A DNA stretch of 46,641 nt from an uncultured Spartobacteria bacterium (GTDB taxonomy: Bacteria > Verrucomicrobiota > Verrucomicrobiia > Chthoniobacterales > Chthoniobacteraceae), in contig CAIURC010000048.1 in the NCBI GenBank assembly GCA_903901425.1, forward strand, positions 1 through 46,641, read 5' to 3'. Shown one piece after another: positions 5,236 through 43,268 of the stretch. The translations under genes were made by a program, and so were the position numbers. Every line of letters begins with the position of its first letter. The first letter of the stretch is position 1. The notes below the pieces were generated by a model. That model made no database searches. It was given only the letters and a program-made list of their open reading frames with translations, and was not told the DNA's origin.

Positions 5236-5249
5236 GTGGCAACGGGATT

Positions 5250-5293
5250 GGTTGCCGCTCCGGGGCAACCTGGTTTCCCCCATTATAGGGGGG
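5250..5293 (+). terminator. Two adjacent hairpins after the pilT-like gene
   Basis: GGTTGCC (5250-5256) and GGCAACC (5264-5270) form a perfect 7-bp stem with a 7-base loop. It is followed directly by CCCCC-ATTATA-GGGGG (5277-5292). There is no clear U-tract, so this is a possible transcript end or processing structure, not a classical intrinsic terminator. It lies between the PilT-like stop (5235) and the PSD1 start (5366). Confidence 0.35.
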
Positions 5294-5365
5294 TTGAGCG
5301 GTGGGCGGACTTTGCGCGAGAGTGCACGGTCGCGGGGCCCGGTAGCCTGGCGCCCCCCACTCTTC

Positions 5366-8293: not shown

Positions 8294-9774
8294 ACCCCAT
8301 GAACTGCAACTCCCATCTTTTCAACGGGCTGCCGTATGAAACGCGGCTGGCTTTGACCCGGCGTCAGTTGTTCGCGCGGGGTGGAAACGTGCTGGGGGCC
8401 GTGGCACTCCAGTCGCTACTGGGACGCGGGCTCCGGGCGGAAACGGAGGGGGGCAAGCCGGCGCTGCCGCATCGTCCGGCCAAGGCGAAGAACGTGATCT
8501 ATCTGCACATGGTGGGCGGTCCCTCCCAGATCGACATGTACGATTACAAGCCGAAGATGGAGGAGATGTACGACAAAGATCTGCCCGACAGCATCCGGAA
8601 CGGGCAGCGTTTGACCGGGATGACCTCGGGTCAAAAGCGGTTTCCTGTGGCGCCTTCGAAGTGGAAGTTCAGTCCGGCGGGGCAGTGTGGATTGTGGATG
8701 AACCAAGAACTGCTTCCTTTCACGGCCAAGTCCGTGGATGACATTGCCTTTATCCGGTCCATGCACACCGAGGCGATCAACCACGAGCCCGCCATCACGG
8801 AAATGCAGACGGGTTCCCAGGTGGCTGGGCGCGCCTGTATCGGCTCCTGGCTGAGTTACGGGCTCGGATCCGAGAACAAGGATCTCCCGGCGTTTGTGGT
8901 TTTGGTTGCGGAGCCCTCCCAAGGTGGGGCCGTCCAGGCTATTTCCGGCAAACTGTGGTCCAGCGGATTCCTGCCGGGCGAACATGCCGGAGTCAGTTTC
9001 CGAAGCAGTGGCGATCCGATTCTGTACATCAACAACCCGGACGGAGTGACGGTGCCGACCCGGCGCCGCCAGTTGGATGCGATCAACCAGGTGAACGAGA
9101 TGCTGCACAGGCAGTTGGGGGATCCTGAGACGCATACCCGGATCCAGCAGTACGAGATGGCGTTCCGGATGCAGGCCAGCGTGCCGGAACTGACCGATCT
9201 CGGGAAGGAACCGGCTCACACGTTTGAACTCTACGGGGAGGAAGCGAGGAAACCGGGTACTTTTGCGAATGCGGCGCTGATGGCCAGACGACTCACGGAG
9301 CGCGGGGTGCGTTTTGTGCAGATCTACCTGAACGGCTGGGACCAGCACGGGAACATGGCGGGAAAACTGCCCACGCAGTGCAAGGACATCGACCAAGCCA
9401 CCCATGCGCTCTTGGAGGACCTCAAGCAGCGTGGATTGTTTGAGGAAACGTTGGTGGTGTGGGGCGGCGAGTTTGGCCGGACCATCTATTCCCAAGGCGG
9501 GTTGACCCGGGAGAATTACGGGCGCGATCATCATCCGCGGTGTTTCACCATGTGGCTGGCTGGAGGCGGGGTCAAGGGGGGGACGATCCACGGTGAGACT
9601 GATGATTTTTCCTACAACATCGTCAAGGATCCCGTCCATGTCCGGGATTTCCACGCCACCTTCCTGCACCTGCTGGGGATTGAACATGAACGGTTCACGT
9701 ACCGGGCGCAGGGGTTGGATTTCCGGCTCACCGGGGTGGAGCCGGCGCGGGTGGTCAAAAGCATTCTGGCGTGA
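8290..9774 (+). CDS. DUF1501 family Tat-exported protein
   Basis: This 494-aa protein belongs to DUF1501, a family of the alkaline phosphatase/sulfatase fold. The N-terminus has a twin-arginine motif (TRRQLFARGG) and a hydrophobic stretch, so it is probably exported folded. Family blocks are clear: NVIYLHMVGGPSQIDMYDYK, the RGVRFVQIYLNGWDQHG metal-site region, and WGGEFGRTIYSQG followed by GRDHHPRCFTMWLAGGG. It overlaps the PSD1 gene by four bases (ATGA 8290-8293), so the two are translationally coupled and likely act together outside the cytoplasm. ATG 8299 is an alternative start. The family's hydrolytic activity has not been shown. Confidence 0.9.
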   Translation: MNPMNCNSHLFNGLPYETRLALTRRQLFARGGNVLGAVALQSLLGRGLRAETEGGKPALPHRPAKAKNVIYLHMVGGPSQIDMYDYKPKMEEMYDKDLPDSIRNGQRLTGMTSGQKRFPVAPSKWKFSPAGQCGLWMNQELLPFTAKSVDDIAFIRSMHTEAINHEPAITEMQTGSQVAGRACIGSWLSYGLGSENKDLPAFVVLVAEPSQGGAVQAISGKLWSSGFLPGEHAGVSFRSSGDPILYINNPDGVTVPTRRRQLDAINQVNEMLHRQLGDPETHTRIQQYEMAFRMQASVPELTDLGKEPAHTFELYGEEARKPGTFANAALMARRLTERGVRFVQIYLNGWDQHGNMAGKLPTQCKDIDQATHALLEDLKQRGLFEETLVVWGGEFGRTIYSQGGLTRENYGRDHHPRCFTMWLAGGGVKGGTIHGETDDFSYNIVKDPVHVRDFHATFLHLLGIEHERFTYRAQGLDFRLTGVEPARVVKSILA

Positions 9775-10252: not shown

Positions 10253-12883
10253 GTGAACAGGGTACTGGCAGAGGTAGTGGTGCGCGGAAGCGAAGGTCAG
10301 CGTCTTTTGGGGGCTGAGTTGAGCGCTGGCGCGTTCATTGTGGGAAGCGGCCCCGCCGCAAGCGTGCGCTTGGAAGGTTCCCGGTTGAGTGGCAACCATC
10401 TGCGACTGTGGGTAGGGGAAGGCGGGGTGAAACTTGAGCGTTTGGAGGGCCAGATCCGCGTGGAGGGCCGTTCGGTGCGGGGCTACGTGGTGCTTCTGCC
10501 TGGCCAGGAGGCGGATCTCGGCGATGGGATGCGTCTTGAAGTGCGGGTGCCGAATCAGCAGGAGGTGACCAAATACGAGGTGGGCGAGTTGCTGGCCGAA
10601 GGGGGGACGGGTCCGATCCACTCGGCCCAGGAGCTGAGCACGGGGCGGGTTGTGGCATTTAAAATGCCAACGGTTGGGGCTTTGGACGAGCAGCGGAGGC
10701 GGCAGTTTTTGCACGAGGCCCGGATCACGGCGCAGTTGGACCACCCAGGAGTGGTGCCGGTGTACGAGGTTGGGGACGGCTCGGACGGGATGGTGTATTA
10801 CACGATGAAGCGGATCCGGGGGATCACGCTTGAGAAAGTGCTCGACCTGATTGCCGCCGGGACCGGGGCGACTGTTGCCAAGTACCCTTTGCAGAATCTT
10901 GTGACCGTCTTTTTAAAGGTGTGCGAAACGGTGGCATTTGCGCACAGCCGGGGGGTGGTTCACAGGAGTCTGCGGCCCGCATCGGTCACGCTGGGCGACT
11001 TCGGTGAGGTGCTCGTGATGGGGTGGGGTACGGCAACCGTTCAGCGGTCGGATGTGAAGGTAGCTTACGGGCTTGTGGAGGTGCCGGTTCCGGAAGAGCC
11101 GTTGCCGGACTTGGAGGTGGGTGACAGCCCGCAGCATCTCAGCCCGGAGCAGGTGCAGTCTGGTTTGCAGACTGTGGATGCTCTCAGCGACGTGTACGCG
11201 CTGGGGGTCATCCTGTATCAGATTCTCAGTTTGCGTGGGCCGATTGAGCCGGGAACGCCGGAAGAAATGCGGGAGCGCGTGGCGCGTGGGGAAACGCTGT
11301 CTTTGACCATGGGGCCGGGGCGGAAGGGGGTGCACCTGCCTGGGGGGCGGATTCCGGCAGCGCTGGCGGCGGTGGTGGCGCGTGCGATGCGCCCGGTCCG
11401 GGAGGAGCGGTACCAGAGCGTGGCGGAGTTGAAGGAGGACGTGGAACGGTACCTTGCAGGGTACCAGACCAGTGCGGAAGGTGGGGGGGCATGGAGAGCT
11501 GCGGCGTTGTTTGTGCAGCGGCATCGGAAAGGTGCGGCGGTGGTTGGGATCGGGGTGGGGGTGGCGCTGGTTTCCTTGGGACAGACGATTCTTGCGGGGC
11601 GCAAGGCGGAACAGGCGCTCTCGGATCTGAGGGGGGCTGCGGGTTTTTTGAAGGATCTTGCGGAGATGGACGCCGGGATGCGCCGGATGGAGCCGGCGTT
11701 GAAGAAACTGGAGCGGGTTTTAGAGTTGGCTCCCTGGGACGTGGAGGCGGAACGTCGCAAGGCGTGGGTCCATGTGGGGCGAGGGAAGTTGCGGGAGGCG
11801 TCCGGGGCGATGCGGGCCGTTCTTGTGCGCCTGCCGACGGATTTAAACGCGAGAAAAGCCTTGGATGTTTTTGAAAGACTCGAGGACCGCTCGTCTGGGG
11901 AGTGGACGGTACCTGAGAAGACTTTGCTGGGGCGGTTGCTGATGGAGAACCAACTGTACGGCGAGGCGCTGGCCTTGGGAGACGCCGTGGTTCTCACTCC
12001 CGCGCAACGCCTCGAGGTGGTGCGGGTCCGGGTTGGGGAATGGCTGGGGCAGAGTCAGGACGGCCAGCCCCGGTTTGAGGTCAGTTTGAATGGGGGCAAG
12101 GAGGTGGAGTTGACCTTGAAGGAGCCGGCCTTGGCCCGCCTGGAACCGGTGACCGCCCTGCCAGTGGATGTGTTGGACTTGCGCGGCACCTCGGTCTCGG
12201 ATCTGGCGCCGCTCCGCGGAATGCGTCTCAAGGGGTTGAAGATCGATAATCTCGATGTTTCAGACCTCGGTCCATTGTCCGGAATGCCGCTTCGGGAGTT
12301 GACAATGAGCTGGGTGCCTGCGGAGGGCGTGGAGGCGCTCCGGGGGTGCCCTCTGGAAACTCTGGATGCGACCGCCAGCGGGGTTTTGGATTACCTCCCC
12401 CTGTACGGACGGCCCTTGAAGGTCGTGAGGCTGGGCTACGCTTCTGGGCGCGTGGATCTGCGCTTTCTTCAGGCCTCCCCCGTGGAGGCGCTCACGCTTG
12501 AACATGCCGGGGTCAGGGATCTAGAGCCTCTGAAAGGGAGGCCGTTGAAGGAACTCGATCTGACAGGGAATCCGGTGGAAAGTTTGAAGCCGCTAGAGGG
12601 CATGGGGTTGGAGCGATTGACTTTGCACTCCGTGGATTCCTTGAAAGGCACTGCGCCGCTGGGGACTCTGCCGAAGCTCCAAGAACTGAGATTCAGCTGG
12701 CGGGTGCCCCGCTGGTTGCCGGAGGAGTTGCGCAAGAGTCCGTCGCTCAAGAAGGTGGTCTTTCAGGGGCGCGCGTTATCCGCGGAGGAATTCTGGGCCA
12801 AACTGGACAACTTGCCAGCCGAGGACAGGGCAGATGGAGAGGGAGCGAGCGCAGGTCCAGTGAAGGAGGAAAGCAAGCCATGA
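10253..12883 (+). CDS. FHA-pseudokinase-TM-LRR receptor-like protein
   Basis: This 876-aa paralogue of the next gene has an FHA-like domain (1-100), a protein-kinase fold (about 108-400), one transmembrane segment (about 428-447), a helical TPR-like region, and an LRR-like tail (about 625-840) of 22-24-residue units with a PL..MPL..L core. The kinase keeps the ATP lysine K137 and helix-C E155. It has lost the catalytic Asp (HRD becomes H237-R238-S239), the Mg-binding Asn (S244) and the DFG-equivalent Asp (MGWG, G257). The glycine loop is also altered (AEGGTGPI). It should therefore be catalytically dead, though it may still bind nucleotide. The GTG start at 10253 is supported by N-terminal alignment with the paralogue. 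Its stop overlaps the next start by four bases. Confidence 0.85.
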   Translation: MNRVLAEVVVRGSEGQRLLGAELSAGAFIVGSGPAASVRLEGSRLSGNHLRLWVGEGGVKLERLEGQIRVEGRSVRGYVVLLPGQEADLGDGMRLEVRVPNQQEVTKYEVGELLAEGGTGPIHSAQELSTGRVVAFKMPTVGALDEQRRRQFLHEARITAQLDHPGVVPVYEVGDGSDGMVYYTMKRIRGITLEKVLDLIAAGTGATVAKYPLQNLVTVFLKVCETVAFAHSRGVVHRSLRPASVTLGDFGEVLVMGWGTATVQRSDVKVAYGLVEVPVPEEPLPDLEVGDSPQHLSPEQVQSGLQTVDALSDVYALGVILYQILSLRGPIEPGTPEEMRERVARGETLSLTMGPGRKGVHLPGGRIPAALAAVVARAMRPVREERYQSVAELKEDVERYLAGYQTSAEGGGAWRAAALFVQRHRKGAAVVGIGVGVALVSLGQTILAGRKAEQALSDLRGAAGFLKDLAEMDAGMRRMEPALKKLERVLELAPWDVEAERRKAWVHVGRGKLREASGAMRAVLVRLPTDLNARKALDVFERLEDRSSGEWTVPEKTLLGRLLMENQLYGEALALGDAVVLTPAQRLEVVRVRVGEWLGQSQDGQPRFEVSLNGGKEVELTLKEPALARLEPVTALPVDVLDLRGTSVSDLAPLRGMRLKGLKIDNLDVSDLGPLSGMPLRELTMSWVPAEGVEALRGCPLETLDATASGVLDYLPLYGRPLKVVRLGYASGRVDLRFLQASPVEALTLEHAGVRDLEPLKGRPLKELDLTGNPVESLKPLEGMGLERLTLHSVDSLKGTAPLGTLPKLQELRFSWRVPRWLPEELRKSPSLKKVVFQGRALSAEEFWAKLDNLPAEDRADGEGASAGPVKEESKP
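12863..12870 (+). promoter_or_regulatory. Strong internal Shine-Dalgarno for the active kinase
   Basis: AAGGAGGA lies inside the last codons of the pseudokinase, nine bases before the ATG at 12880. Most other genes in the window have weak or no such site. It fixes the start of the second kinase and suggests that its translation is boosted independently of coupling through the ATGA overlap. Confidence 0.75.
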
Positions 12884-15414
12884 GTCTGCCACTTGCAAAA
12901 GTTCTGGTGCGGGACGAGACGGGGGAGGTGCTGCTCAGCGCAAACCTCATGGCAGGAATTCATGCGGTGGGCAGTTCGAGCCGGTGCGCCGTCCGGATCC
13001 AAGTGGCCGGGGTGGAACCCGAGCACCTGTGCCTTGAAGTGAGCGAGGGGGGGGTCTGTATCCAAGCTCCGAAAAAGGGATGCGGGCTTTGGCTGGACGG
13101 ATGGGAGGTCGACGGCCGCACCTTGGTGTTGCCGGGACAACAAATCCGGATTGGGGGCGTGGTTTTGGAGGTGCGCGAGGCTGGGCTTGAGGAATCGGGG
13201 ATTGCCGAGGGGAAACTGGAGGTCCGGTCTGAGATTGCGCGGGGAGGGATGGGGTCGGTGTACTTGGCTTGGGACCGCACGGCTGGCCGGGAGGTGGCGA
13301 TCAAGATTTTGAAGGGCGGCCAGGCCGAACCGGTGAACCGCGGGCGGTTCATCACGGAGGCCAAGGTCACTGCGCGCCTCGAGCATCCCGGGGTGGTGCC
13401 GGTGTACGATGTGGGAGCAGGTGAGGCGGGCGAGACCTACTACACCATGAAACTGGTGCAGGGCCGCACCCTTCTCAAGGTGCTGGAGGGGATTTCTGCG
13501 GGCGAGGAGGGAACGGCAGCCCGGTACTCGCTGGCCGTGCTTCTCGGGGCTTTTGTCAAGGTCTGCGATGCAATTGCCTACGCGCACAGCCGCGGGATCA
13601 TCCACCGGGACCTGAAACCGGACAACATCATGCTCGGAGAGTATGGCGAAGTCCTGTTGATGGATTGGGGGGTGGCCAAGAGCCTTTCCGGGAATGAACT
13701 CGGTCTTGGAATGGTGGATCTGGCGGCGGACGCCGTTCTCACGCTGGCCGGGGAGGTGGTGGGCACTCCGCACTACATGAGCCCAGAGCAGGCCCTGGGC
13801 CGCAATGAGCGCGTGGGGCCGCAGAGCGATGTGTATTCGCTGGGATCCATTCTTTACCAAATTCTCAGCCTGCGGCTTTCCGTTGAGCTAGGACCTGTGA
13901 TGGAAGTGCTTCGGCGCGTGGCTTCCGGAGAGGTGCTGCCGCTGGTGGCGCCCGCCGGCCTCCCCGCCAGCCATCTGCCGGGCGGCCGAATTCCGAGTTC
14001 CTTGGTGCCGGTGGTCAAGAAAGCCATGGCTCTTCAGCCGGAGGACCGGTACCGCTCCGTGGAGGAACTCCGGGCAGATGTGGAGCGTTTCCAACAGGGG
14101 TTTCCCACCTTGGCGGAACGTTCCAACTGGTGGCGGCAGGGGGTCTTGATGGTGCGCAGGCACCGGGCAGCGGTTTTCGCCGCATCACTGATGGTTTTGG
14201 TGGGGACTTCTTTTGGCGTGAGTTCGTATATTTCAGGACGGCACGCCAGTCAGGTTCTGGGCCGGTTGCGGGAGACGGCCATTTCGCTGCGGGAGGTCGC
14301 AGAGGCCGACGCGGACTTCCAGCGGCTGGAGGTGGCACTCAAGAAGCTGGATACCGCCGATGCGCTGGATCCGGGGCATCGTTCCTCGAGCGCACGGAAG
14401 GCCTGGCTGCTGGCGGGGTTGGGACGGATTGCCGATGCAGCCGAGGAGATGAAGCGCGCGGTGCCCGGTGACCGCTGGGCCGTGGATGCCGAAAAGTGGA
14501 CGGCATTTTTTCAGAAGCTTGCGGGTGAGCCTGTAGAATCCTGGACGCTGGAAGACCGCGCTGCCTTGCTGGAGGAGTTCGAGCAAAGAAAACTGGGCGG
14601 GGAGGCATTGAGCTTCACCAATCTGCTGCGCGCCAGCGGAACGAACCGCATGGAACTGGTGCGTGCAACTCTGCGGCAGCGGGATGCCAATTCAGTTTTT
14701 GTGGTGTCACAGGATGCCCTTGGGTATGTCTCGGTCCGCTCCAAGGGTTGGGTTTCAACGGTTGAACCTCTGAGGGGACTTCCCATCGCGGAATTGGTGC
14801 TGACCATGCGCGAGGAGGACTCCTTGAGCTTTCTTGAAGGTGTCCCGCTCCGCGTCTTGCGGGTCCGGGGGATGTCTCGGATGAAGAACTTGGAGCCGTT
14901 CCGGGGCATGGCCCTGAGGGAACTCGAATTGAACGGGTGCCGCGTGGCCGATTGCTCGGCTCTGGAGGGGATGCCTTTGAGGAAGCTCGTGCTTGGGGTC
15001 GGCAGCACCATCGATCTGCAGGTGCTGGCAGCCGCGCCTCTCGAGCATCTGGGGGCGCAGGGAGTCCGGATCCAAGATCTCAGCCCTCTGGCTGGGAAAC
15101 CTCTCCGGATTCTGAACCTGAGCCACAGCGGCGTTGCCGACATCTCCCCGCTCCGTCAGTCGAGCGTTCGGAACCTGGATATTTCCGGTTGTGCCGCATT
15201 GGCAACGGCTGAGAAACTGGACCCATTGACCCGGATGCCGGACCTGAATTGGGTGATGCTTCCGAAGGGATCCACGCCGCCGAGCTTGCTCCGGTACCAC
15301 CCCGCATTGCGGCGGATTGGTCGGGAGGGGATGGCCGGCACCAGCGGCCTGATGCCGGTGGAAGCGTTCTGGGTCGCTTACGACAAGGAACGCGCCGCCG
15401 CCAAGGCCCGGTAA
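12880..15414 (+). CDS. FHA-Ser/Thr protein kinase-TM-LRR receptor-like protein
   Basis: This 844-aa protein has the same architecture as its upstream neighbour but an intact PknB-type kinase domain (about 113-395). It shows the glycine loop ARGGMGSVYLA, ATP lysine K142, helix-C E160, catalytic loop IHRDLKPDN (D244, N249), the DFG variant MDWG (D262), and the GTPHYMSPEQ activation/APE region. A single transmembrane helix (about 430-450) follows, then a helical segment and an LRR-like tail (about 630-805, repeats of the type PLRGLPIAELVL). By analogy with bacterial Hanks kinases, the FHA and kinase should be cytoplasmic and the LRR tail extracytoplasmic. Its likely partner is the overlapping pseudokinase. 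Confidence 0.9.
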   Translation: MSLPLAKVLVRDETGEVLLSANLMAGIHAVGSSSRCAVRIQVAGVEPEHLCLEVSEGGVCIQAPKKGCGLWLDGWEVDGRTLVLPGQQIRIGGVVLEVREAGLEESGIAEGKLEVRSEIARGGMGSVYLAWDRTAGREVAIKILKGGQAEPVNRGRFITEAKVTARLEHPGVVPVYDVGAGEAGETYYTMKLVQGRTLLKVLEGISAGEEGTAARYSLAVLLGAFVKVCDAIAYAHSRGIIHRDLKPDNIMLGEYGEVLLMDWGVAKSLSGNELGLGMVDLAADAVLTLAGEVVGTPHYMSPEQALGRNERVGPQSDVYSLGSILYQILSLRLSVELGPVMEVLRRVASGEVLPLVAPAGLPASHLPGGRIPSSLVPVVKKAMALQPEDRYRSVEELRADVERFQQGFPTLAERSNWWRQGVLMVRRHRAAVFAASLMVLVGTSFGVSSYISGRHASQVLGRLRETAISLREVAEADADFQRLEVALKKLDTADALDPGHRSSSARKAWLLAGLGRIADAAEEMKRAVPGDRWAVDAEKWTAFFQKLAGEPVESWTLEDRAALLEEFEQRKLGGEALSFTNLLRASGTNRMELVRATLRQRDANSVFVVSQDALGYVSVRSKGWVSTVEPLRGLPIAELVLTMREEDSLSFLEGVPLRVLRVRGMSRMKNLEPFRGMALRELELNGCRVADCSALEGMPLRKLVLGVGSTIDLQVLAAAPLEHLGAQGVRIQDLSPLAGKPLRILNLSHSGVADISPLRQSSVRNLDISGCAALATAEKLDPLTRMPDLNWVMLPKGSTPPSLLRYHPALRRIGREGMAGTSGLMPVEAFWVAYDKERAAAKAR

Positions 15415-31712: not shown

Positions 31713-32579
31713 ATGCTGAACGTCCATCATCTCGAACTGTTTTTTTACGTGGCGCGGCATGGGGGGATCACCGCGGCGCTGCCGCACATTCCGTACGGGA
31801 TCCAGCAGCCCGCGGTCAGTGCACAGATTGCCCAGTTGGAGGAGCATCTTGGGGCGAAGCTGTTTGAACGTCGGCCTTTTGCGCTGACCCGGGCAGGCCA
31901 GATGGCGTACGAGTTCGCGGCCCCTTTTTTTTCGGGGTTGGACGCGCTTGAAAGCCAGTTGAAATCCGAGCCGGAGCAGCATCTGAGGGTGGCGGCGAGT
32001 GCGATTGTGTTGCAGGCCCATCTTCCGGCGCTTCTGGAGCGGCTGGGGGTACAACCGCCGGAACTGCGACTGGCGTTGAGGGAAGCCACCCAAGCGGAGG
32101 CCCAGACTCTCCTGATTGAGCAGCAGGTGGAACTGGCGCTGGTGGCTTTCGATGCGCCCATCCGGGGACTCCAGTCGGAGGTTCTCCTCCGGTTGCCGCC
32201 CCAGTTGGTGGTGCCGGCATCGGATCCGGCCCGGAACGCGGCAACCGTGCTCAAGCGGGAGGATTTGCATTTGGTGGCGATGCCGGAACGGTTCCAGCCC
32301 AGCCGCAGCGTCCTCGCGGAACTTGACCGGCGCGGATTGTCCTACACGCTCGGGGTGGAGGCAGGCAGCCTGGATCTGGTGGACACCTACGTGGGGGCCG
32401 GGCACGGCATCGGCATCTCTTTGGCTGTCCCCAGCCGGCGTTCTGGTTCGGGAGTGCGGTACCTGCCTTTGACCGGATTTGACCCCGTCCAGTTTGGGGC
32501 GCTCTGGAAAGGGCGCCTAGGACCGTTGTCTGAACGGCTCCTTGCCGAGGCCAAGAGCTACATCCGGGATCTGGAGTAA
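31713..32579 (+). CDS. LysR-family transcriptional regulator
   Basis: This 288-aa protein has an N-terminal winged helix-turn-helix of LysR type (about 1-62; HHLELFFYVARHGGITAAL, then QQPAVSAQIAQLEEHLGAKL and FERRPFALTRAG). A periplasmic-binding-like effector domain (about 90-288) follows. The recognition helix carries PAVSAQIAQLE, as usual in the family. A GGAG ribosome site lies shortly before ATG 31713, and the gap from the DUF1552 stop is 11 bases, so it is likely co-transcribed with the cytochrome operon. It converges on the secretion trio. Targets and ligand are unknown. Confidence 0.9.
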   Translation: MLNVHHLELFFYVARHGGITAALPHIPYGIQQPAVSAQIAQLEEHLGAKLFERRPFALTRAGQMAYEFAAPFFSGLDALESQLKSEPEQHLRVAASAIVLQAHLPALLERLGVQPPELRLALREATQAEAQTLLIEQQVELALVAFDAPIRGLQSEVLLRLPPQLVVPASDPARNAATVLKREDLHLVAMPERFQPSRSVLAELDRRGLSYTLGVEAGSLDLVDTYVGAGHGIGISLAVPSRRSGSGVRYLPLTGFDPVQFGALWKGRLGPLSERLLAEAKSYIRDLE

Positions 32580-32669: not shown

Positions 32670-34247
32670 TCACTTGGCCGGTTTTGAGCCTGGTTTCGTG
32701 GCCGGTGCTGAGCTGGGCTTTTGAGCCGCCTTTTCCTGCGCCTTCGCCGCAGCGGCCGCAGGGGGCGGAGGATTGGGGGAGTCGGCTGCGGTGGCTGCCC
32801 GGTAGTTGGCTTGGGCGCGGAAATAATCGGCGAGGGCTTCCACCTCCAGCACTTTGGCGTCAAACGTGGCCTGTTCGCGGATCTGCAGGGCCAGAAGATC
32901 AGCGGCGCCCTGGCGGAACCGCTCATTCTCGGCCTCCTGCAGGGTCTGAGCGAGTTGGACGTTGCGCCGGGATTGGCCGAGGGCGTCAAACGCGGCCACC
33001 AGGGCGCTCATGCTGTCCTGAACATCGGCTCCGATCCGGTCCAAGGCAAAGGACTGTTCTTGGAGAAGCCGCGAAATCTGGGCATTCACGGCATCCAGAC
33101 GGCCCTTGGCCTCCCGCCGCTGGAGCGGCAGCTTGAACTCGAGTTTTGCAGTGACTTCGGTGGGTTCGATGTCTTTGGGGACTCCAGAACCGAGGGATTG
33201 GGACGCTTCGACACCCACGTCGATGTTGGGCAGGAGGTTGTTCTGGGCCAGACGCTTGTCGATGGACGCTTTCTCCAGCGAAAGCGCGATCCGTCGCACT
33301 TCAGGGCGCCGGACCCGGGCACGGGCCAAGTCCGGGTTGAGTTGTTCCGGGTCCGGTCTTGGGTGGGCCGGGAACGATTTTGGGAGCCGCTCTCTCCCCG
33401 CGAGAATGGGGGCGGCGGTCTCTGGTGCGCGGAGGAAGAGCGAGAGTTCGATGGAGGCGGCCTGAAACCGCCGCAAAGCCTGAACCACGCTGATTTCGCG
33501 GCTCACCACGAGCCGCTGGTTATCGATCTGAACGATGGGCGCGGACGCCCCGCTTTTGACCTGCTCGGAAATGGCGGAGTCGCGGTCTTTGGCGATCCTC
33601 AGAAGATCCTCAGAGAGGTCGAGCCGTTGGCCGGAAGCCAACCAGTTGAAGTAAGAAACGGAACCGGCCCGGACAAAATCCAAGTACTGTCGGAGGATCA
33701 ACGGATCCGCGAGGTCCTGGTCGATCCGGGCCTGCCAGAGGGTGGCGCGTCTGCGGTCTACAGTGCCGTCCCGGAGCAGCGGGATCCGGAAACCGAGCAC
33801 GCCTTCGCCGTCGATTCCGGTGCGGTCCTTGTTGTAGTTGGGAAGGAACCCGCTGCTGATGCGGTAGCCGCCGTAGACGTTTCCACCCCAGAAAGGGAGG
33901 GGTTGGTCGAGCGACGCGTAGCCGGTCCGGCCGTCATAGTATCCCATCGGAGTGAGCGCACCTCCCGAGGCCAGTTGCAGGTCGAATGCGCCGAGAGCGG
34001 ACCGGACACGTCCGTTGGCAATGTCCTGTTCCAGAAGCGCTGCCAGATAGGGGGGATAAAGGGATCTGATGCTGGAAAGGACGTCCTCCAGCAGAAGCGT
34101 CGATTTCTGGGAGGCCGGGACTGGCGCAGCCGCCTTCGGCGCGGAGTCCGCAGATTTTTTCGGGGGCGGGGATGCGGCACGGGCGGCAACGGCGGTTCCC
34201 AAAAAAAGTGCGGCAACAATTGCGGCGGTGTGCTGGGAGTGCCTCAT
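32670..34247 (-). CDS. TolC-family outer-membrane efflux protein
   Basis: This 525-aa protein begins with a signal peptide (MRHSQHTAAIVAALFLGTAVAARA) and a short Pro/Lys-rich linker. Two OEP repeats of long coiled-coil helices with beta-barrel strands follow (for example DQPLPFWGGNVYGGYRIS, then LEKASIDKRLAQNNLLPNID). The C-terminal 50 residues are an Ala/Pro/Lys-rich low-complexity tail after the second repeat. TolC proteins trimerise into the outer-membrane channel of tripartite exporters. It overlaps the HlyD gene by four bases (ATGA 34244-34247), so it is the outer part of the ABC/HlyD system upstream. (The signal peptide is split here for length: MRHSQHTAAIVAALF and LGTAVAARA.). Confidence 0.9.
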   Translation of the reverse strand: MRHSQHTAAIVAALFLGTAVAARAASPPPKKSADSAPKAAAPVPASQKSTLLLEDVLSSIRSLYPPYLAALLEQDIANGRVRSALGAFDLQLASGGALTPMGYYDGRTGYASLDQPLPFWGGNVYGGYRISSGFLPNYNKDRTGIDGEGVLGFRIPLLRDGTVDRRRATLWQARIDQDLADPLILRQYLDFVRAGSVSYFNWLASGQRLDLSEDLLRIAKDRDSAISEQVKSGASAPIVQIDNQRLVVSREISVVQALRRFQAASIELSLFLRAPETAAPILAGRERLPKSFPAHPRPDPEQLNPDLARARVRRPEVRRIALSLEKASIDKRLAQNNLLPNIDVGVEASQSLGSGVPKDIEPTEVTAKLEFKLPLQRREAKGRLDAVNAQISRLLQEQSFALDRIGADVQDSMSALVAAFDALGQSRRNVQLAQTLQEAENERFRQGAADLLALQIREQATFDAKVLEVEALADYFRAQANYRAATAADSPNPPPPAAAAAKAQEKAAQKPSSAPATKPGSKPAK

Positions 34248-35533
34248 TTTTTGGAGGTATCGAGTTTGGCTTCGTCGCCGGAAATCAGAGGGGGGAACCC
34301 ATTGATTTGGCGCCAGATTTCAAACCAGAGAGGAACCTGTTCAAGCAAGACCCATGCATTTGCGCGGGACCCCTGACGGAGCCAGCGATCCTTGTCGGGC
34401 CAGCCAAGCCGCACCGGTTTGCCCGAGCGCCGCACGGATTCCTCCGCCGGGGCGATGACCACGCGGAACCGGCCTTTGCCGTCGTCGGTGGCATCCACGA
34501 AAACAACTTCGCCCGGGAACGTGCCCACGGCGACCTGAGGCCAGCCCATGAACTGGACGGCCGGCCAACCCTCCAAGGCGACCCGCACGGGGCTGCCGGG
34601 CACGGTCACGCCATCCATTTCCCGCCGAGCATGCAGGAGCGGGGCATCGTTTCCGTCCAGCCAGATTTCGACAAAGCGGCTGTCGGTTTCGGGGATTAGA
34701 ACGCAGATCAGGGAGCCGGGTCTGAGGTACGTGCCATCGGTGGCGGAGATCTGGAGGATGATGCCGTCGCGTGGGGCTTCCACCACCTGTCGGAGGTTCT
34801 GGTTGATCTGGATGTCGATGGAGGAGAGGTCGCGTTCGGCGGAAGCCACCTCCGAGAGGGCGGTGCCTTTCTGGGCGTGAATGGAGGCGATGGTGCTGTC
34901 GAAATCGTTGTGGGTGCGTTTGAGCGTCGCCTCGGCGGAACGAAGGTCCGCGGTGGTCGAGTCGCGCTGGAGTGTGGCCAGTTCGAGTTCGCGTTTTGAG
35001 GCAAGCCCCTTCGCGGCAAGGTTCTCGGTCCGCGTGTAGTTCAGGAGCGCGGTCTGGGCGGCGATTTTGGCGGCTGCGACCCGTTGTTCGGCGGAGTCGA
35101 GCGCCTGGCCTTTGGCCAGTTCCTGCTGGGTGATCTGTGAAATCAGCGATTCAACCCGGCCTTGGGCAAAGTCGCGGCGGCTTTCCACCGCCTCGCGTTG
35201 GGCACGGAGATTGTTGAGCAGATCCGGATCGTTGTCCTGAATCTCCACCAGCAACTCGCCCTTGCGGACTTTCTGCCCCTCCACTACGTGGAGATGTTTG
35301 ACGCGCCCGGAAACCTGCGCCTCGATGTTGACCCGGCGGTCCAGAGGGTTGAATGCAATGACCCGGCCAGACCCCGCCACAAACTGCCGCCAAGGCAGGA
35401 AAAGAATCGCGGCCACGAGGACGAAAAAACCGGCAATCAATGCGCGGCTCACGAGGTGCGGGGTCCTCCCAGATCCGCAAAGGCTCAGGGCCGGGATGGT
35501 GTCAGAGTGGAAGGTGGTGCTGCGGTTTTCCAT
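34244..35533 (-). CDS. HlyD-type periplasmic adaptor (membrane fusion protein)
   Basis: This 429-aa protein is read from ATG 35533; the longer frame to 35884 lies inside the ABC gene. One N-terminal transmembrane helix (about 30-48) is followed by a lipoyl half-motif (VNIEAQVSGRVKHLHVVEGQ) and KVRKGELLVEIQDND. A long coiled-coil hairpin (about 100-240), the returning lipoyl half (VVEAPRDGIILQISATDGTY) and a beta-barrel domain come next. It bridges the inner-membrane exporter and the TolC channel. It starts 5 bases after the exporter stop and overlaps TolC, so the three are one operon. Confidence 0.9.
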   Translation of the reverse strand: MENRSTTFHSDTIPALSLCGSGRTPHLVSRALIAGFFVLVAAILFLPWRQFVAGSGRVIAFNPLDRRVNIEAQVSGRVKHLHVVEGQKVRKGELLVEIQDNDPDLLNNLRAQREAVESRRDFAQGRVESLISQITQQELAKGQALDSAEQRVAAAKIAAQTALLNYTRTENLAAKGLASKRELELATLQRDSTTADLRSAEATLKRTHNDFDSTIASIHAQKGTALSEVASAERDLSSIDIQINQNLRQVVEAPRDGIILQISATDGTYLRPGSLICVLIPETDSRFVEIWLDGNDAPLLHARREMDGVTVPGSPVRVALEGWPAVQFMGWPQVAVGTFPGEVVFVDATDDGKGRFRVVIAPAEESVRRSGKPVRLGWPDKDRWLRQGSRANAWVLLEQVPLWFEIWRQINGFPPLISGDEAKLDTSKK

Positions 35534-35538
35534 GGGGC

Positions 35539-37710
35539 TCAATGATTCCGGGCCGGAGGGTTGTCCGTGGGAGGGGCCAGTGGGATGACCTGCTGGCAAA
35601 GGCGCGAGATTTCGGGTTCCCGCGAGGAGATGACGAGGGTCCAGGGCAGTTCGGGGTCCAGAACGGCTTTTGACAATGTTTCGAACGACGCCGGGTCGAG
35701 GCCGTCCAGGAGTTCGTCGATGAGGAGGAGCCTCGGTTTCTGCACAATCGCCCGGGCGAGAAGGAGTTGGGTGCACTGGGTGGTGGAGAGGGGTGCCCCG
35801 CCGCTGCGCAGACGCAGGTTCAGGCCCTCGGGACGGTGCAAAAGGTGGTCCAACAGGCCCACCCGCGAAAGCGCGGCGTAACACTCGTCCGTGCCCAGGG
35901 TTTCCTTGCCCAGCTTCAGGTTCTCCAAAACGCTGCCCTCCACAATTTCCCCGCGGCGCAGGAGTTGGACGTTTTCGCGGAGTCCTTCGAGGTACCAGTT
36001 GCGGAGGTCGAGACGGTCAATGGCAAGGTGGCCCGCGGTGGCCGGGCGGATCCCGAAAAGCAGGTCCAGCAGGGAGGATGCGCCAGAGCCGTGGGGACCC
36101 ACCAGCGCGGTCCGGCTGCCGGGGGGCAGCGAGAATGAAAGGTTGGAAAACAGGGGGGCCTGCCCCTCATACGCGAAGCTCAGGTTGCACGCTTCTACCG
36201 AAGCCGCTCCAGAAACGGGCGCCGGAGGGCGTTCGCCGTCTTCGCGTTCGATCGGGAGATCCAGCAGGTGACCCAGCTTGTCCATGGCCGCCATCGCATC
36301 GTACCAAGCCTCGAGCTTTTTCCCAAGCTTGGCCAGAGACGCCGCGATTCCGCCCATGATCAGCTCGGAGGCGGCCAGCTGGCCCACGGTGAGTTGCTGG
36401 TTGAGTACCAGCCAGCCCCCTAGAAGCAGAACCGCACCACTCGCAGAAACCGAAAGAATCAGGAGTCCGGTCACTTGACGGATGACAACCTGGAAATGGC
36501 TGCCCCGTTTTTCGAGGTAGGCTCCGGCCAGCTGGCTGGCACGGTCCGCTGCCAGGGCGTGCCCGCCCGGACCCCGGAACAGCAGGGGAAACGCGGCGAT
36601 CTGTTCGAACCAGTTGACCAGTTCGTATTTGAGCTTGGACTCGGCGATGGAGGTCTGGACGGCGTTCCGGCCCAAGGGCCAGACCACGACCACGATCAGC
36701 AGGAGCAGGATCGCGACCAACGCGAGGAGCGCCGGATGATAAAACGCCAAGAGCAGCATGCCCGACAAACTGCCGAACACTACGTTCACGCCATCCAGCA
36801 GGATCAGCGAGGTGCTTTTCTGGGCGGTGACCACCTCCAGAAAACGGTTTACCAACTCCGGGGCATGCACTTTGTCCACCGCCTCCGCGCGGACCCGGGG
36901 CAGCCGGTAGGCCAGATCCGCCGAAGCGCGGACAAAAATCCGGCGCTGGATGATCTCGGAGAGGTAATACTGGAAGGCGGAAACCACTGCCTGAAGCGCC
37001 AAGCATCCCATCAGGGCGATGGTGAGGATCACCAGCGCCTGCACGTAGGGCGCGGATTGTCCTCCAAATCCCAGATTGCTCACCACGGCATCCACGGCCA
37101 GCGGCGCCGCCAGATACAGGAGGCCGGAAAAAAACGAGAATACCAGCAGTGAGCCCACATGCTGGCGCTCCGTCTTGAGGAGTTCCAAAAAACGGCGGGC
37201 CGGACTGGGGTGCTCATGCGAGTCCCCGTGGTGGCCGGCATCCCCGTGAGGAGCCAGCGGGTTGGGGTGTTCGGTCGCAAGCGCCTGCGCCGGGCGCTCA
37301 GGATGCACCACCCCGGCCTCCAGCACCGTCTCAAGGCTCTCCAACCCCAACCGCCGGAGCAGTTCGGAGCGCGAAATAGTGATCCTCGCCGTGGGGTGGT
37401 CCCCGTCCGCAATCCGGAGGTTGAACCAGCCCGCAGCCGTGATGGTAATCCAGCGGGCCTGTGGTTGCGACCAGATCAGCACCGGGGAGTCCGAACGCGC
37501 CAGCCAGAGAAGTTCACCAAGGGAATGCCGCACTGGGGCGACTGCAATCCCCACCTCGGCCGCCGTCGCAACCAAGCGGCTGAGTGGATCGGGGTCCTCC
37601 GCGAAATGCTGCAAAGCGGTCTTGGCGCGCTCAGCGGGTACAGAGACGCCTGTCAGGGCGGCCAATTGGGACAGAGTGCCAAGGGAGAGAGAGGATGGGG
37701 AAGAAGGCAT
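35539..37710 (-). CDS. Type-I-secretion-like ABC exporter with C39-like domain and degenerate ATPase
   Basis: This 723-aa protein has a C39-peptidase-like domain (about 1-120) lacking the catalytic Cys, a His-rich linker (148-167, HGDAGHHGDSHEH), a six-helix ABC transmembrane domain (about 185-450) and an ABC ATPase (about 505-705). The ATPase keeps the A-loop Tyr (FAYEG) and Walker B with Glu (LLLIDE, E666). The Walker A lysine is replaced (GPHGSGASS, A544), the signature is LSTTQ in place of LSGGQ, and the H-loop His is a Ser (VISSRE). The open frame is clean, so this is not simple decay. It heads the HlyD-TolC operon. It may be inactive, or may act as a half of a heterodimer. Confidence 0.88.
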   Translation of the reverse strand: MPSSPSSLSLGTLSQLAALTGVSVPAERAKTALQHFAEDPDPLSRLVATAAEVGIAVAPVRHSLGELLWLARSDSPVLIWSQPQARWITITAAGWFNLRIADGDHPTARITISRSELLRRLGLESLETVLEAGVVHPERPAQALATEHPNPLAPHGDAGHHGDSHEHPSPARRFLELLKTERQHVGSLLVFSFFSGLLYLAAPLAVDAVVSNLGFGGQSAPYVQALVILTIALMGCLALQAVVSAFQYYLSEIIQRRIFVRASADLAYRLPRVRAEAVDKVHAPELVNRFLEVVTAQKSTSLILLDGVNVVFGSLSGMLLLAFYHPALLALVAILLLLIVVVVWPLGRNAVQTSIAESKLKYELVNWFEQIAAFPLLFRGPGGHALAADRASQLAGAYLEKRGSHFQVVIRQVTGLLILSVSASGAVLLLGGWLVLNQQLTVGQLAASELIMGGIAASLAKLGKKLEAWYDAMAAMDKLGHLLDLPIEREDGERPPAPVSGAASVEACNLSFAYEGQAPLFSNLSFSLPPGSRTALVGPHGSGASSLLDLLFGIRPATAGHLAIDRLDLRNWYLEGLRENVQLLRRGEIVEGSVLENLKLGKETLGTDECYAALSRVGLLDHLLHRPEGLNLRLRSGGAPLSTTQCTQLLLARAIVQKPRLLLIDELLDGLDPASFETLSKAVLDPELPWTLVISSREPEISRLCQQVIPLAPPTDNPPARNH

Positions 37711-39032: not shown

Positions 39033-41885
39033 ATGCGCCCCTACCTCCTTGTCCTGCTGGGCTCTGCTTCCGTCTTGGATCCGAATATCGCCCAAGCCGT
39101 CCCCCCTTCCTCGCCCCAACGGAAGCCGATCTCTCGTTCTTATGCCGTCCCGAGTACCCCGGTGGAGCCCAGTTTTCGAAGGCACGTGGTGCCGCTCATG
39201 AGCCGGATGGGCTGTTCCGGGCGCGAGTGCCACGGATCGTTTCAAGGGCGTGGCGGCTTTCAGCTCTCCCTTTTTGGCTACGATTTTGAGAAGGACCACG
39301 AGCAGATGACCGTAGTCGACACCGGGGACGAGGGTGTGGTCCGGGTCAACCGCGAGAACCCGGTGGAAAGTTTGCTGCTCAAGAAAGGGGCGGCGTTGGT
39401 CAGTCACAAAGGCAAGGAGCGTTTTGCCAAGGGTTCCTGGGAGTACAACCTGCTCCTGCGCTGGATTCAGGGCGGGACCCGGATCGATGTGGCGGAGACG
39501 GGCGAGTTCGACCGGCTTGAGGTTTCGCCCGGGGAGATCGTTTTCCGCAAAAAGGGGGATGCGGTCCAGCTCCGTGTTCTGGCGCACTGGAAGGACGGGA
39601 CGGTGGAGGATGTCACGGAGATCACCCGGTTCCGCTCCAATGACGAATCGGTGGTGTCGGTTTCCGAGGCGGGCCGTGTGACGAGCCTAGGCAAGGGGGA
39701 CTCGCAGGTGGTGGCCTTTTATGACAACGGCGTGGTGCCGGTTCCTGTCATGCTGCCGGTATCGGACCGTGCTGCTTATCCAAAGGTGGTGAGTGGCCGG
39801 AACCGGGTGGATGAGCTGGTCAACGCCAAGCTCCGCAAGGTGGGGATCATTCCATCTCCGGTCTGCACCGATGCCGAGTTTCTGCGCCGGGCAAGCTTGG
39901 ATGTGACCGGGACGTTGCCGACGCCAGCAGAGGTGGAGGCGTTCCTGGCCGACCGTTCGCCGGATAAGCGGGACCGGAAGATTGACGAGTTGCTGGGGCG
40001 GCCAGGATACGCGGCGTGGTGGACGACAAAACTCTGCGACTTTACGGGGAACAACCCGCTGGTGTTGCGGGGGAACAATTTGGCGGCAAACGCGAACCAG
40101 GTGAACTTCGGGCCGCAACTGGCACGGCAGTGGTTTGACTGGATTTATTCGCGGGTTGAGCAGAACCGGCCCTACGACGAGCTGGCGGCTGGGATTGTTT
40201 TGGGCGCGATGCGGAGCCGGCCCGACCAGCCCTACGCCGAGTTTGTGGAGGAGATGAGTTCCTATTTCCGCAAGGACGGGGCGCATTTTGGGGAACGGGA
40301 AACCATGCCGTGGTTCTGGGCCCGGCAGAACGTCCAGAAACCTGAGGACAAGGCGTTGGCGTTTGCCCACACGTTTCTCGGCGTCCGGATCGAGTGCGCG
40401 CAGTGCCACAAACATCCTTTCGACCAGTGGACCAAGCAGGATTTCGCCCAGTTTCAGGCGTTCTTTTCCACGATTTCATTCAAGCAGGGGGACGGCAAAG
40501 GCAACAAACCCAGCAAGACCCCGGCAACGCTGCCTCAGGACGCGGGGGAACCAGAGGCGGTGAGTTATGCGAGCCTCCGGGACGGGATCCGTGCCGAGGC
40601 GAAGGGGAAGGTCGATGCCCAGTACCGCGAAAAGGACCTCAAACAGGCCGGGGAACTGCGCGAGGAAAAACTCAAGGAACTGCAGCGAAAACTGGATGCT
40701 ACTCAGGATCCGGGCGCTTGTGATGCGGTGGCTGCAGAAATGACGGCGCTCCGGGAGGCGCCTTTGGAGCCGGTGGTGTTGTCCGAGGCCGAAAAAACGC
40801 GGCGGACCGCCGATCTGCGGGTGGCCTACCAGCGTGCGGAGGAAGCCATTGTTCGGGAGCGGATGGTGAAAGGGGAACCTCTGGCGTGGGCGGATCTGTC
40901 GGCGCAGGCGCCAAAAACGGGGGCAAAGGCTGGCGGCGGATCTCAGGCGTCGGTCCGGGGAAGCAGCCGGGTGATGACGCCGAAGCTTCTGGGGGGCGAG
41001 GCGGTGATGCTGGAGACGTTTGAGGATGTTCGGAGGCCACTCATGGATTGGTTGCGGGCTCCGGAGAACCCGTATTTCGCGAAAGCGTGGGTCAACCGGG
41101 TGTGGGCGAGCTATTTTGGGCGTGGCCTGGTGGAACCTGCGGACGACCTCAATCTGGCCAATGCGCCAAGCAACCCGGCGGTGTTCGACTACCTGGCAGA
41201 AGGCTTTGTGAAGAACCAGTTCGACATGAAGTGGTTGCACCGTGAAATCCTCCGCAGCCATGCGTACCAGCGCAGTTGGCAGACCAACGCCACCAACCGG
41301 GTGGACGAAAAAAACTTTTCGCGTGCCTTGGTGCGCCGGTTGCCCGCTGAGGTGGTCTATGACGCGATCCTGATGGCAACCGAGTCTCAGGAACGGCTGC
41401 AGGAGTTCCCGGCCAATGTGGCGGAGCGTGCGATTGGCGCGGGCGGCACCACCAATTACGCGGCAAAAAAGGGCGCAAAAACTCCCAACGGTTACGCGCT
41501 GGGGATCTTTGGGAAGCCCGCACGTCAGACCAACTGCGATTGTGAGCGGGTCATGGATCCGACGCTGCTCCAGACCATTTTCACCCGGAACGATCCCTCG
41601 CTCCTGAGCCGGATCGAGGACAAAAAGGCCACGGCATGGATTGAGGAAGCGTTTGGCATCCGAGCGGGGGAACGTGGCACACCGGAGGAGTTGAAGGCTG
41701 TTGCCGAGGCCGGTGTGGAAGGCGTGGTGCGCGAGATATTTCTTCGGACCCTGAGCCGGCCGCCCTCGGCGGAGGAGTTAAAGACGGCCCGGGGCGATGT
41801 GCTTGGCCATTCCTCCCCGGTGGCCGGCGCGAAGGAACTGCTGTGGACCATGCTGAACACCCGCGAATTTCTCGTGAACCACTGA
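39033..41885 (+). CDS. Secreted DUF1549/DUF1553 protein with Ig-like domain
   Basis: This 950-aa protein has an N-terminal signal peptide (MRPYLLVLLGSASV...AQA). It has a heme-like CxxxxCH motif in MGCSGRECHGSFQG, typical of this subfamily. A Big_2-type Ig fold (about 165-250, ending RVTSLGKGDSQVVAFY) precedes DUF1549, which carries the second heme motif CAQCHKHPFDQW. A basic/acidic coiled segment (about 500-590) and the C-terminal DUF1553 (WLRAPENPYFAKAWVNRVWA, MDPTLLQTIFTRND) follow. The first PSD1 gene has no Ig domain, so the two differ in domain order. The downstream DUF1501 gene follows after 36 bases. Confidence 0.9.
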   Translation: MRPYLLVLLGSASVLDPNIAQAVPPSSPQRKPISRSYAVPSTPVEPSFRRHVVPLMSRMGCSGRECHGSFQGRGGFQLSLFGYDFEKDHEQMTVVDTGDEGVVRVNRENPVESLLLKKGAALVSHKGKERFAKGSWEYNLLLRWIQGGTRIDVAETGEFDRLEVSPGEIVFRKKGDAVQLRVLAHWKDGTVEDVTEITRFRSNDESVVSVSEAGRVTSLGKGDSQVVAFYDNGVVPVPVMLPVSDRAAYPKVVSGRNRVDELVNAKLRKVGIIPSPVCTDAEFLRRASLDVTGTLPTPAEVEAFLADRSPDKRDRKIDELLGRPGYAAWWTTKLCDFTGNNPLVLRGNNLAANANQVNFGPQLARQWFDWIYSRVEQNRPYDELAAGIVLGAMRSRPDQPYAEFVEEMSSYFRKDGAHFGERETMPWFWARQNVQKPEDKALAFAHTFLGVRIECAQCHKHPFDQWTKQDFAQFQAFFSTISFKQGDGKGNKPSKTPATLPQDAGEPEAVSYASLRDGIRAEAKGKVDAQYREKDLKQAGELREEKLKELQRKLDATQDPGACDAVAAEMTALREAPLEPVVLSEAEKTRRTADLRVAYQRAEEAIVRERMVKGEPLAWADLSAQAPKTGAKAGGGSQASVRGSSRVMTPKLLGGEAVMLETFEDVRRPLMDWLRAPENPYFAKAWVNRVWASYFGRGLVEPADDLNLANAPSNPAVFDYLAEGFVKNQFDMKWLHREILRSHAYQRSWQTNATNRVDEKNFSRALVRRLPAEVVYDAILMATESQERLQEFPANVAERAIGAGGTTNYAAKKGAKTPNGYALGIFGKPARQTNCDCERVMDPTLLQTIFTRNDPSLLSRIEDKKATAWIEEAFGIRAGERGTPEELKAVAEAGVEGVVREIFLRTLSRPPSAEELKTARGDVLGHSSPVAGAKELLWTMLNTREFLVNH

Positions 41886-41921
41886 AAACCGCCCATCCAT
41901 CCATTCAAGGAGCACAGACCC

Positions 41922-43268
41922 ATGAACACATCTCCATCCTATTGTGACGGTGTCCCGCGCCGGGACTTTCTCCGCGTGGGCGCCCTGAGCGGGTTCGGCC
42001 TTGGCCTAACCCTGCAGCGTTTCCTTCAACAGACCGCGATGGCCGCTGCGCCGGGCGTTGCGGGAGCGCCGCTCCAGCAGGGAAGCGGCTTGAGTCTGCC
42101 GGCCCGGGCAAAGGCAGCGATCTTTGTGCGGCTCGGAGGCGGTCCGAGCCACATGGACACGTTTGACCTCAAGCCGGACGCCCCCGAGACGCACCGGGGC
42201 GAGTTCAAGCCGATCTCCACCAACGCCGATGGAGTGCAGATCTGCGAGCATCTCCCGTTGCTCGCAAAGTGCGCGGACAAGTTCGCGGTGGTGCGCGGTG
42301 TTTCCCATACTCTGGCTGCGCACGAGCTTGGCTCGCTGTACATGGGCACCGGGAACCGGCCGATTGCTTCCCTGAGTTTCCCGACATTTGGTGCGGTGGT
42401 GAGCAAGGAACTGGGCAGCGAAAAGGAGTTGCCCGGATTCGTGGCGGTGCCTTCGCAGGGCAATAACCCCACCGGTTACCTCGGAGTCGAGTATGGCCCG
42501 TTTGATACCGGGGCAACTCCGCAGCCCGGAAAGGCGATGGAAGTCCGCGGCTTGGCGTTGCGCGGAGTGACCATGACCGACATTGACCGCCGCCAGGACA
42601 TGGTCCGCAAGTACGACACCGCTTTTGGAGCGTTTGCCAAGGAAGACAAGATCCTCAGCGGCATGGACGAGTTTGGTCAGAAGGCCTACCAGATGATGCG
42701 CTCCACCAAGGCCCGGGAGGCGTTTGACCTCGGACGCGAACCCGCCAGCATCACGGGGCTTTTTGGAACCACGCCCTTCTCCCAGAGCTGCCTTCTGGCC
42801 ACCCGCCTTGTCGAAAGCGGGGTGCGGTTTGTCACGGTACAACTCGGCGGCTGGGACACCCATGCCGACAACTTTGCCACCCTCAAACGGAAGAACCTGC
42901 CGGACCTCGACAACGGTCTCTCGGGCCTGTTTCTCGCTCTTGCCGCAAAGGGGTTGCTTGAAACCACTGCGGTTTACGTGACCGGGGAGTTTGGACGGAC
43001 CCCCAAGGTCAATGCCCGCGCCGGACGCGATCATTATCCGCGTGCCATGTTCTGTCTGCTTGGGGGCGGCGGGATCCGCGGGGGACAGGTGGTGGGTGCC
43101 TCCGATGAAAAGGGGGAGGGGCCCAAGGACAAGGCGATTACGCCGGACGACATTGCAGCGACCTTCTATGGCCTGCTCGGGATCGATGTGCGCAAAGAGT
43201 ACCTGACTCCCAGCGGCCGGCCAGTGATGATCGTCCGCAACGGCGAGGTCATCCGCGAGCTGGTTTGA
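41922..43268 (+). CDS. DUF1501 family Tat-exported protein (second copy)
   Basis: This 448-aa protein has a twin-arginine signal (PRRDFLRVGALSGFGLGL). An AAGGAG ribosome site lies at 41907-41912, nine bases before the ATG. DUF1501 blocks are present: AAIFVRLGGGPSHMDTFDL, CEHLPLLAKCADKFAVVRGV, the VTVQLGGWDTHADNF metal-site region, and EFGRTPKVN then GRDHYPRAMFCLLGGGG. It belongs to a different subtype from the copy at 8.3-9.8 kb, as its insert and C-terminal end differ. It forms an operon with the Ig-containing DUF1549 gene. Confidence 0.92.
   Translation: MNTSPSYCDGVPRRDFLRVGALSGFGLGLTLQRFLQQTAMAAAPGVAGAPLQQGSGLSLPARAKAAIFVRLGGGPSHMDTFDLKPDAPETHRGEFKPISTNADGVQICEHLPLLAKCADKFAVVRGVSHTLAAHELGSLYMGTGNRPIASLSFPTFGAVVSKELGSEKELPGFVAVPSQGNNPTGYLGVEYGPFDTGATPQPGKAMEVRGLALRGVTMTDIDRRQDMVRKYDTAFGAFAKEDKILSGMDEFGQKAYQMMRSTKAREAFDLGREPASITGLFGTTPFSQSCLLATRLVESGVRFVTVQLGGWDTHADNFATLKRKNLPDLDNGLSGLFLALAAKGLLETTAVYVTGEFGRTPKVNARAGRDHYPRAMFCLLGGGGIRGGQVVGASDEKGEGPKDKAITPDDIAATFYGLLGIDVRKEYLTPSGRPVMIVRNGEVIRELV

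Follow-up and report, generated by a model that had tools for sequence, protein, structure and literature searches.

The sites of ABC exporters are composite, with each nucleotide-binding domain (NBD) giving Walker A and Walker B to one site and the signature to the other. Among the described systems HlyB/HlyD/TolC is closest to the locus reported here. Degenerate exporters are known as well and keep one consensus site, either in a heterodimer or in a full-length protein (PMC7756269). The window, that is the whole analysed stretch of 46,641 nucleotides from an uncultured Spartobacteria bacterium, contains an ABC exporter gene together with an adaptor and a TolC-type gene (Table 1). Similar to HlyB/HlyD/TolC, the exporter has the order C39-like domain, transmembrane domain (TMD), NBD and the same fold, and adaptor and TolC lie in one cluster. 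In contrast to that system, the Walker A Lys, the Q-loop Gln, the signature Gly and the H-loop His are missing, no RTX gene is found nearby, and ion-uptake genes are linked in some lineages. Since the architecture is retained without the defining ATPase feature, we regard the trio as derived from type I exporters, a variant and not a working member. TM287/288, TAP and CFTR share degenerate catalytic motifs that are maintained by selection, but keep one consensus site, whereas here the Walker A and signature halves are degenerate in one polypeptide. A third point of comparison is given by SbtA-SbtB, AmtB-GlnK and the DAB CO2-hydration complex, as genes of the same kinds adjoin the exporter in some relatives. 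SbtA-SbtB resembles the AmtB-GlnK pair (PMC10117731). No exporter or adaptor partner of DAB2 is mentioned in PMC13144422, and the open-access literature searched yielded neither such a partner of SbtA-SbtB nor a description of the degenerate exporter family.

Table 1. Features of the exporter locus in the window (coordinates of the forward strand).
Feature	Position	Strand	Evidence or remark
LysR-type regulator, convergent with the trio	31713..32579	+	
TolC-type outer-membrane channel (OEP)	32670..34247	-	Pfam OEP 9.5e-17
HlyD-type periplasmic adaptor	34244..35533	-	Pfam HlyD_3 1.6e-10
RTENLAAKGLAS in adaptor, R-x3-L-x6-S	34997..35032	-	
ATPase-degenerate ABC exporter (C39-like domain + TMD + NBD)	35539..37710	-	723 aa
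R697 in place of H-loop His	35620..35622	-	Alignment with 17 canonical exporters (all His)
E666, Walker B Glu, kept	35713..35715	-	
Degenerate signature LSTTQ, residues 641-645	35776..35790	-	
R586 in place of Q-loop Gln	35953..35955	-	Column check against 17 canonical exporters
A544 (GCA) in place of Walker A Lys	36079..36081	-	Codon and alignment columns
Exporter transmembrane domain, about residues 166-483	36262..37215	-	Pfam ABC_membrane; AF2 helices; VIA-align
C39-like domain, about residues 1-150, without Cys	37261..37710	-	AF2 pLDDT 88.7; top PDB match 3zua

The 723-residue exporter is recognised by Pfam as ABC_tran (1.1e-16) and ABC_membrane (2.9e-7), and its AF2 model reaches a pLDDT of 86.4. 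Foldseek placed HlyB (8dck, E 5.8e-25) first for the whole model, and VIA-align gave a Z of about 26 against exporters with the MsbA/TAP/P-gp fold. TM287/288 and TAP are also among the profile and fold matches. The best named NCBIfam profile, TIGR03375 type_I_sec_LssB, scored 165 bits against a model cut-off of 693, and none of the 25 best models listed attained its own cut-off. By fold the N-terminal domain is C39-like, the best PDB match being the C39-like domain 3zua (E 4.1e-4). An earlier note on this DNA had pointed to the lack of Cys in this domain, and indeed residues 1-160 contain none. C39-like domains normally lack the catalytic Cys, so the absence is no sign of decay.

Adaptor and channel genes are intact and as tightly packed as that note had described: 5 bp separate the ABC stop from the HlyD ATG, and the HlyD stop overlaps the TolC ATG by 4 bp (ATGA). 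The adaptor carries R-x3-L-x6-S, a pattern known from the hairpin tips with which adaptors contact TolC. As in the window, many relatives have LysR genes beside the trio. Neither a second ABC gene nor a Dab-, SbtA-, SulP-type or other ion-transporter gene adjoins the window trio, and no RTX ORF is present in the window. Elsewhere the window holds two adjacent protein kinase genes (10253-15414), the second with a weak N-terminal FHA-like (Yop-YscD_cpl) match, and two PSCyt2/PSD1 genes. One of these (5159-9774) is followed by a DUF1501 gene, and the other (39033-43268) lies about 1.3 kb away from the gene for the exporter.

With motif columns set by alignment with 17 canonical exporters, the window exporter deviates at all of the ATPase motifs Walker A Lys, Q-loop Gln, LSGGQ and H-loop His. 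Walker A reads GPHGSGASS from residue 538 with A544 for Lys, and the signature, its Gly replaced, reads LSTTQ, both as first noted. Walker B (LLLIDE, residues 661-666) keeps its Asp and Glu, again in accordance with the first reading. The H-loop His, in contrast, had been read as Ser; the column is occupied by R697, and Ser696 is the preceding residue. The loss of the Q-loop Gln (R586) is a further change that had been overlooked. A conversion of the A544 codon GCA to a Lys codon needs two or three changes, and relatives from other genomes likewise lack Lys in this column, which rules out a sequencing error. For the Walker A K-to-A exporter BmrA K380A no ATPase activity was reported (PMC6488656). 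As Q-loop Gln, signature and His are gone here in addition, we infer strongly from these motifs that the window protein is very unlikely to hydrolyse ATP; the ATPase is thus very probably disabled, as had been proposed.

Within the order, relatives occur in five genomes of the same organism family and in six from a second family. Scanning the genomes of 84,980 species gave 519 relatives, of which the best 80 were kept; these belong to Verrucomicrobiota, Planctomycetota and a few Proteobacteria. About 85 relatives form a clade separate from canonical exporters, and the tree sets this family apart from the 19 canonical exporters included. At the class level it is carried by about 6% of the genomes (23/384). 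Cultured carriers include Brevifollis gellanilyticus (L091), Paludisphaera soli (L137) and Tautonia sociabilis (L138). Four MAG records (L072, L084, L110, L125) are titled Akkermansia muciniphila, which are likely automatic bin names and not species.

The window exporter falls into a 64-row clade with an SH-aLRT of 100. None of its 64 members has the Walker A Lys, the position being taken by A, S, C, T, V, G or M, compared to 17/17 controls with Lys. Arg stands in the H-loop His column in 61/64, and most members retain the A-loop Tyr and the Walker B Glu. The Q-loop Gln is missing throughout the family (0/84 versus 17/17 controls). An order-level group, f13, has kept the Walker A Lys, with the catalytic Glu replaced by Gly and the H-loop His by Thr; its members also lack the Q-loop Gln and the C39-like domain. 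In a basal planctomycete grade Lys is kept as well, Glu in 7/14 and His in 6/14, again without Q-loop Gln. The earlier note had named as a refutation that Walker A and signature are normal in close relatives; no such relative was found, and the close ones are degenerate too. Degeneracy is a trait of the family and not of one disabled copy; neither this nor the recurrent linkage to ion-uptake genes described below had been foreseen in that note. The distribution looks like a stepwise loss of motifs, in which Lys may have disappeared a single time, in the ancestor of the large clade; weak support in the root region makes this order tentative. One relative, split over two contigs (L035, G034:C124; L065, G034:C265), has also lost the D-loop Asp and reads DG at the Walker B Glu, and is among the most degenerate forms.

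Between close pairs the dN/dS of the NBD is mostly 0.05-0.1, similar to that of the TMD and below that of the C39-like domain. Identities are 0.70 for the NBD, 0.77 for the TMD and 0.54 for the C39-like domain. The degenerate NBD is, judging from these substitution rates, under purifying selection. In addition, 54 residues are invariant or almost so in the family and not in the controls; these include F259, R261, E357, K361, Q412, E449, Y470, R555, P640 and D669. Of 88 non-redundant loci, 85 have a HlyD homologue next to the exporter and 60 a TolC gene, and many of the contigs break off early. The conserved trio and the selection on the NBD support the earlier presumption that the complex is still used.

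In a minority of relatives, inorganic-ion transporter genes lie next to the exporter. SbtA and a PII-like gene directly precede it on the same strand in L072 (SbtA, PII-like, ABC, HlyD, TolC, SulP/CA) and L079 (SbtA, PII-like, ABC; PII-family gene PF00543 7.8e-14), and Amt-PII pairs occupy the corresponding upstream position in f13. There the order is DabB-DabA-Amt-PII-ABC-HlyD in L069 and DabA-Amt-PII-ABC-HlyD in L071, both on one strand, and Amt-PII-ABC-HlyD in L067 and L068. The f13 adaptor lacks the TolC-tip pattern and no TolC adjoins the f13 ABC-HlyD genes, a coherent pair of absences. SulP-CA fusions, DabA/DabB, carbonic anhydrase (CA) and LysR genes recur in varying orders in a Verrucomicrobiaceae clade. 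Divergent from the exporter are a SulP-CA gene in a planctomycete (L130) and SbtA in a member of the Opitutae (L122, PF05982 2.9e-89). Other neighbours are DUF47-Pit (L101, L102, L126), a CPA2 antiporter (L108, L111) and Kdp (L226), and many members, the window included, have no ion-uptake gene adjacent. A DUF6268 gene (PF19783) is found among the flanking genes in four cases (L075:15158-16165 and three others). L225, L227 and L228 come from three genomes of a single genus, each 99% complete; there the trio is surrounded by putative response regulators and PAS histidine kinases, and genes for a permease and an isochorismatase-like hydrolase lie a few kb off, all named by eye and not by profile.

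Neither DabA and CA nor SbtA, Pit and DUF47 occurred in 40 neighbourhoods of canonical exporters. A Dab, SulP or CA gene is nearby in 19/88 family loci, so that linkage is a minority trait. Pooled as any inorganic-carbon (Ci) gene, this compares to 5/40 controls (p 0.33). The five control matches are three weak DabB-like ones (132-137 bits) and two SulP genes, the latter in genomes that carry the family, one of them on the same contig. The pooled test is not significant since DabB-like and SulP paralogues occur among the controls; DabA and CA are the cleaner markers. Another 14 loci (L225-L238), some overlapping the first set, had no Dab, SbtA, SulP or CA neighbours. A broad Pfam scan of the genes flanking 107 loci, to which three L226 proteins were added by hand, counted LysR six times, SulP and CA four times each and Amt three times, none of which is among the 25 commonest flanking families of the controls.

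At the genome level DabA was present in 14/23 genomes with the family versus 26/361 (p 7.5e-10), and in a first sample in 7/12 versus 8/135 (p 1.5e-5), both statistics ignoring phylogeny. SbtA, by the same phylogeny-blind count, was not associated (4/23 versus 73/361, p 1). The window's own genome contains, apart from the exporter locus, an SbtA-family gene, three DabA loci and two genes for CA, of which one is SulP-linked. The DabA loci are at G000 C21:377-2650, C26:13121-15775 and C88:78605-79879, none on the window contig. No large subunit of RuBisCO was found in this genome, making an autotrophic role unlikely; the organism is an apparent heterotroph with inorganic-carbon uptake genes.

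The motor parts are gone, the complex is kept in many relatives and some have ion-uptake neighbours, pointing towards a role other than ATP-powered secretion, which we consider probable. Our preferred explanation, to which we give a probability of roughly 0.45, is that of a conserved, non-hydrolysing branch of C39-like type I exporters acting as a trans-envelope accessory for inorganic-ion uptake. Gene neighbourhood and co-occurrence suggest this role for the family, and for the window it would follow by analogy with its relatives. The exporter would form a homodimer unable to act as a motor, and the tripartite complex would pump no protein substrate with ATP. It may be a static or nucleotide/PII-gated accessory, scaffold or conduit across the envelope, which would support bicarbonate/CO2 uptake at the inner membrane and, in other lineages, that of ammonium, phosphate or potassium. 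The full version, a tripartite type I-like assembly turned into a PII- or nucleotide-gated accessory that feeds or organises the uptake of bicarbonate, ammonium, phosphate and potassium, is by itself unlikely. Against the ion-uptake explanation count the small share of linked loci, the non-significant pooled test, the missing association with SbtA and the several catalytic motifs that basal members keep.

The main rival is continued type I protein secretion with another source of energy, such as membrane potential, substrate folding outside the cell or slow residual ATP turnover. We consider it improbable, in spite of a best whole-model match to HlyB, retained HlyD and TolC, the hairpin-tip pattern in the adaptor, and the Walker B Glu and A-loop Tyr still present in most of the clade. 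C39-like domains recruit the substrate in HlyB (PMC11026475), and exporters with such domains are correlated with RTX substrates (PMC8277102). ORFs with at least three GGxGxD motifs, however, were found at 1/107 family loci compared to 2/40 controls, a weak test because substrate genes may lie elsewhere, and the f13 group keeps ABC-HlyD with neither the adaptor motif nor an adjacent TolC. More doubtful still is that the pseudo-NBD binds nucleotides, PII or both and so gates partner transporters or signals the state of the envelope. In two unrelated arrangements (L072/L079 and f13) the exporter is directly preceded by a PII or PII-like gene, many loci have LysR genes at their flanks, and A-loop Tyr and Walker B Asp are mostly kept. 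The PII genes, however, are accounted for by SbtA and Amt, the transporters they belong to, and the retention of TolC is left unexplained.

About equally doubtful is a degenerate half of a heterodimer, whose other half, a canonical ABC exporter from another locus, would supply one working ATP site in the manner of TM287/288 or TAP. Canonical exporters, for which the earlier note had advised a search, are present elsewhere in the window's genome, heterodimeric exporters often have degenerate sites (PMC7756269), and both TM287/288 and TAP are among the matches mentioned above. However, Walker A Lys and signature Gly are missing from the same subunit, so that a mixed dimer would have no consensus site either, and the lineages share no second ABC gene next to the trio. 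The missing consensus site favours a homodimeric, non-hydrolysing assembly with the trans-envelope architecture kept, a part of our preferred explanation that is well supported. A decaying relic or pseudogene has next to no probability: several motifs are lost, and L035 has in addition neither D-loop Asp nor Walker B Glu, but it is ruled out by an NBD dN/dS of about 0.05-0.1 and by tens of genomes in which the frames are open and the trio is conserved.

The accessory role, if true, would mean that a secretion machine was turned into a part of nutrient uptake. If the motifs are lost in every copy while adaptor and channel are kept, the motor would be shown to be dispensable for the working of a type I scaffold; to our knowledge, one site stays functional in the degenerate ABC exporters described to date. 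The linkage to SbtA-SbtB, DAB, SulP-CA and Amt-GlnK genes provides a testable function, in phyla in which carbon and nutrient uptake have, as far as we know, been little studied.
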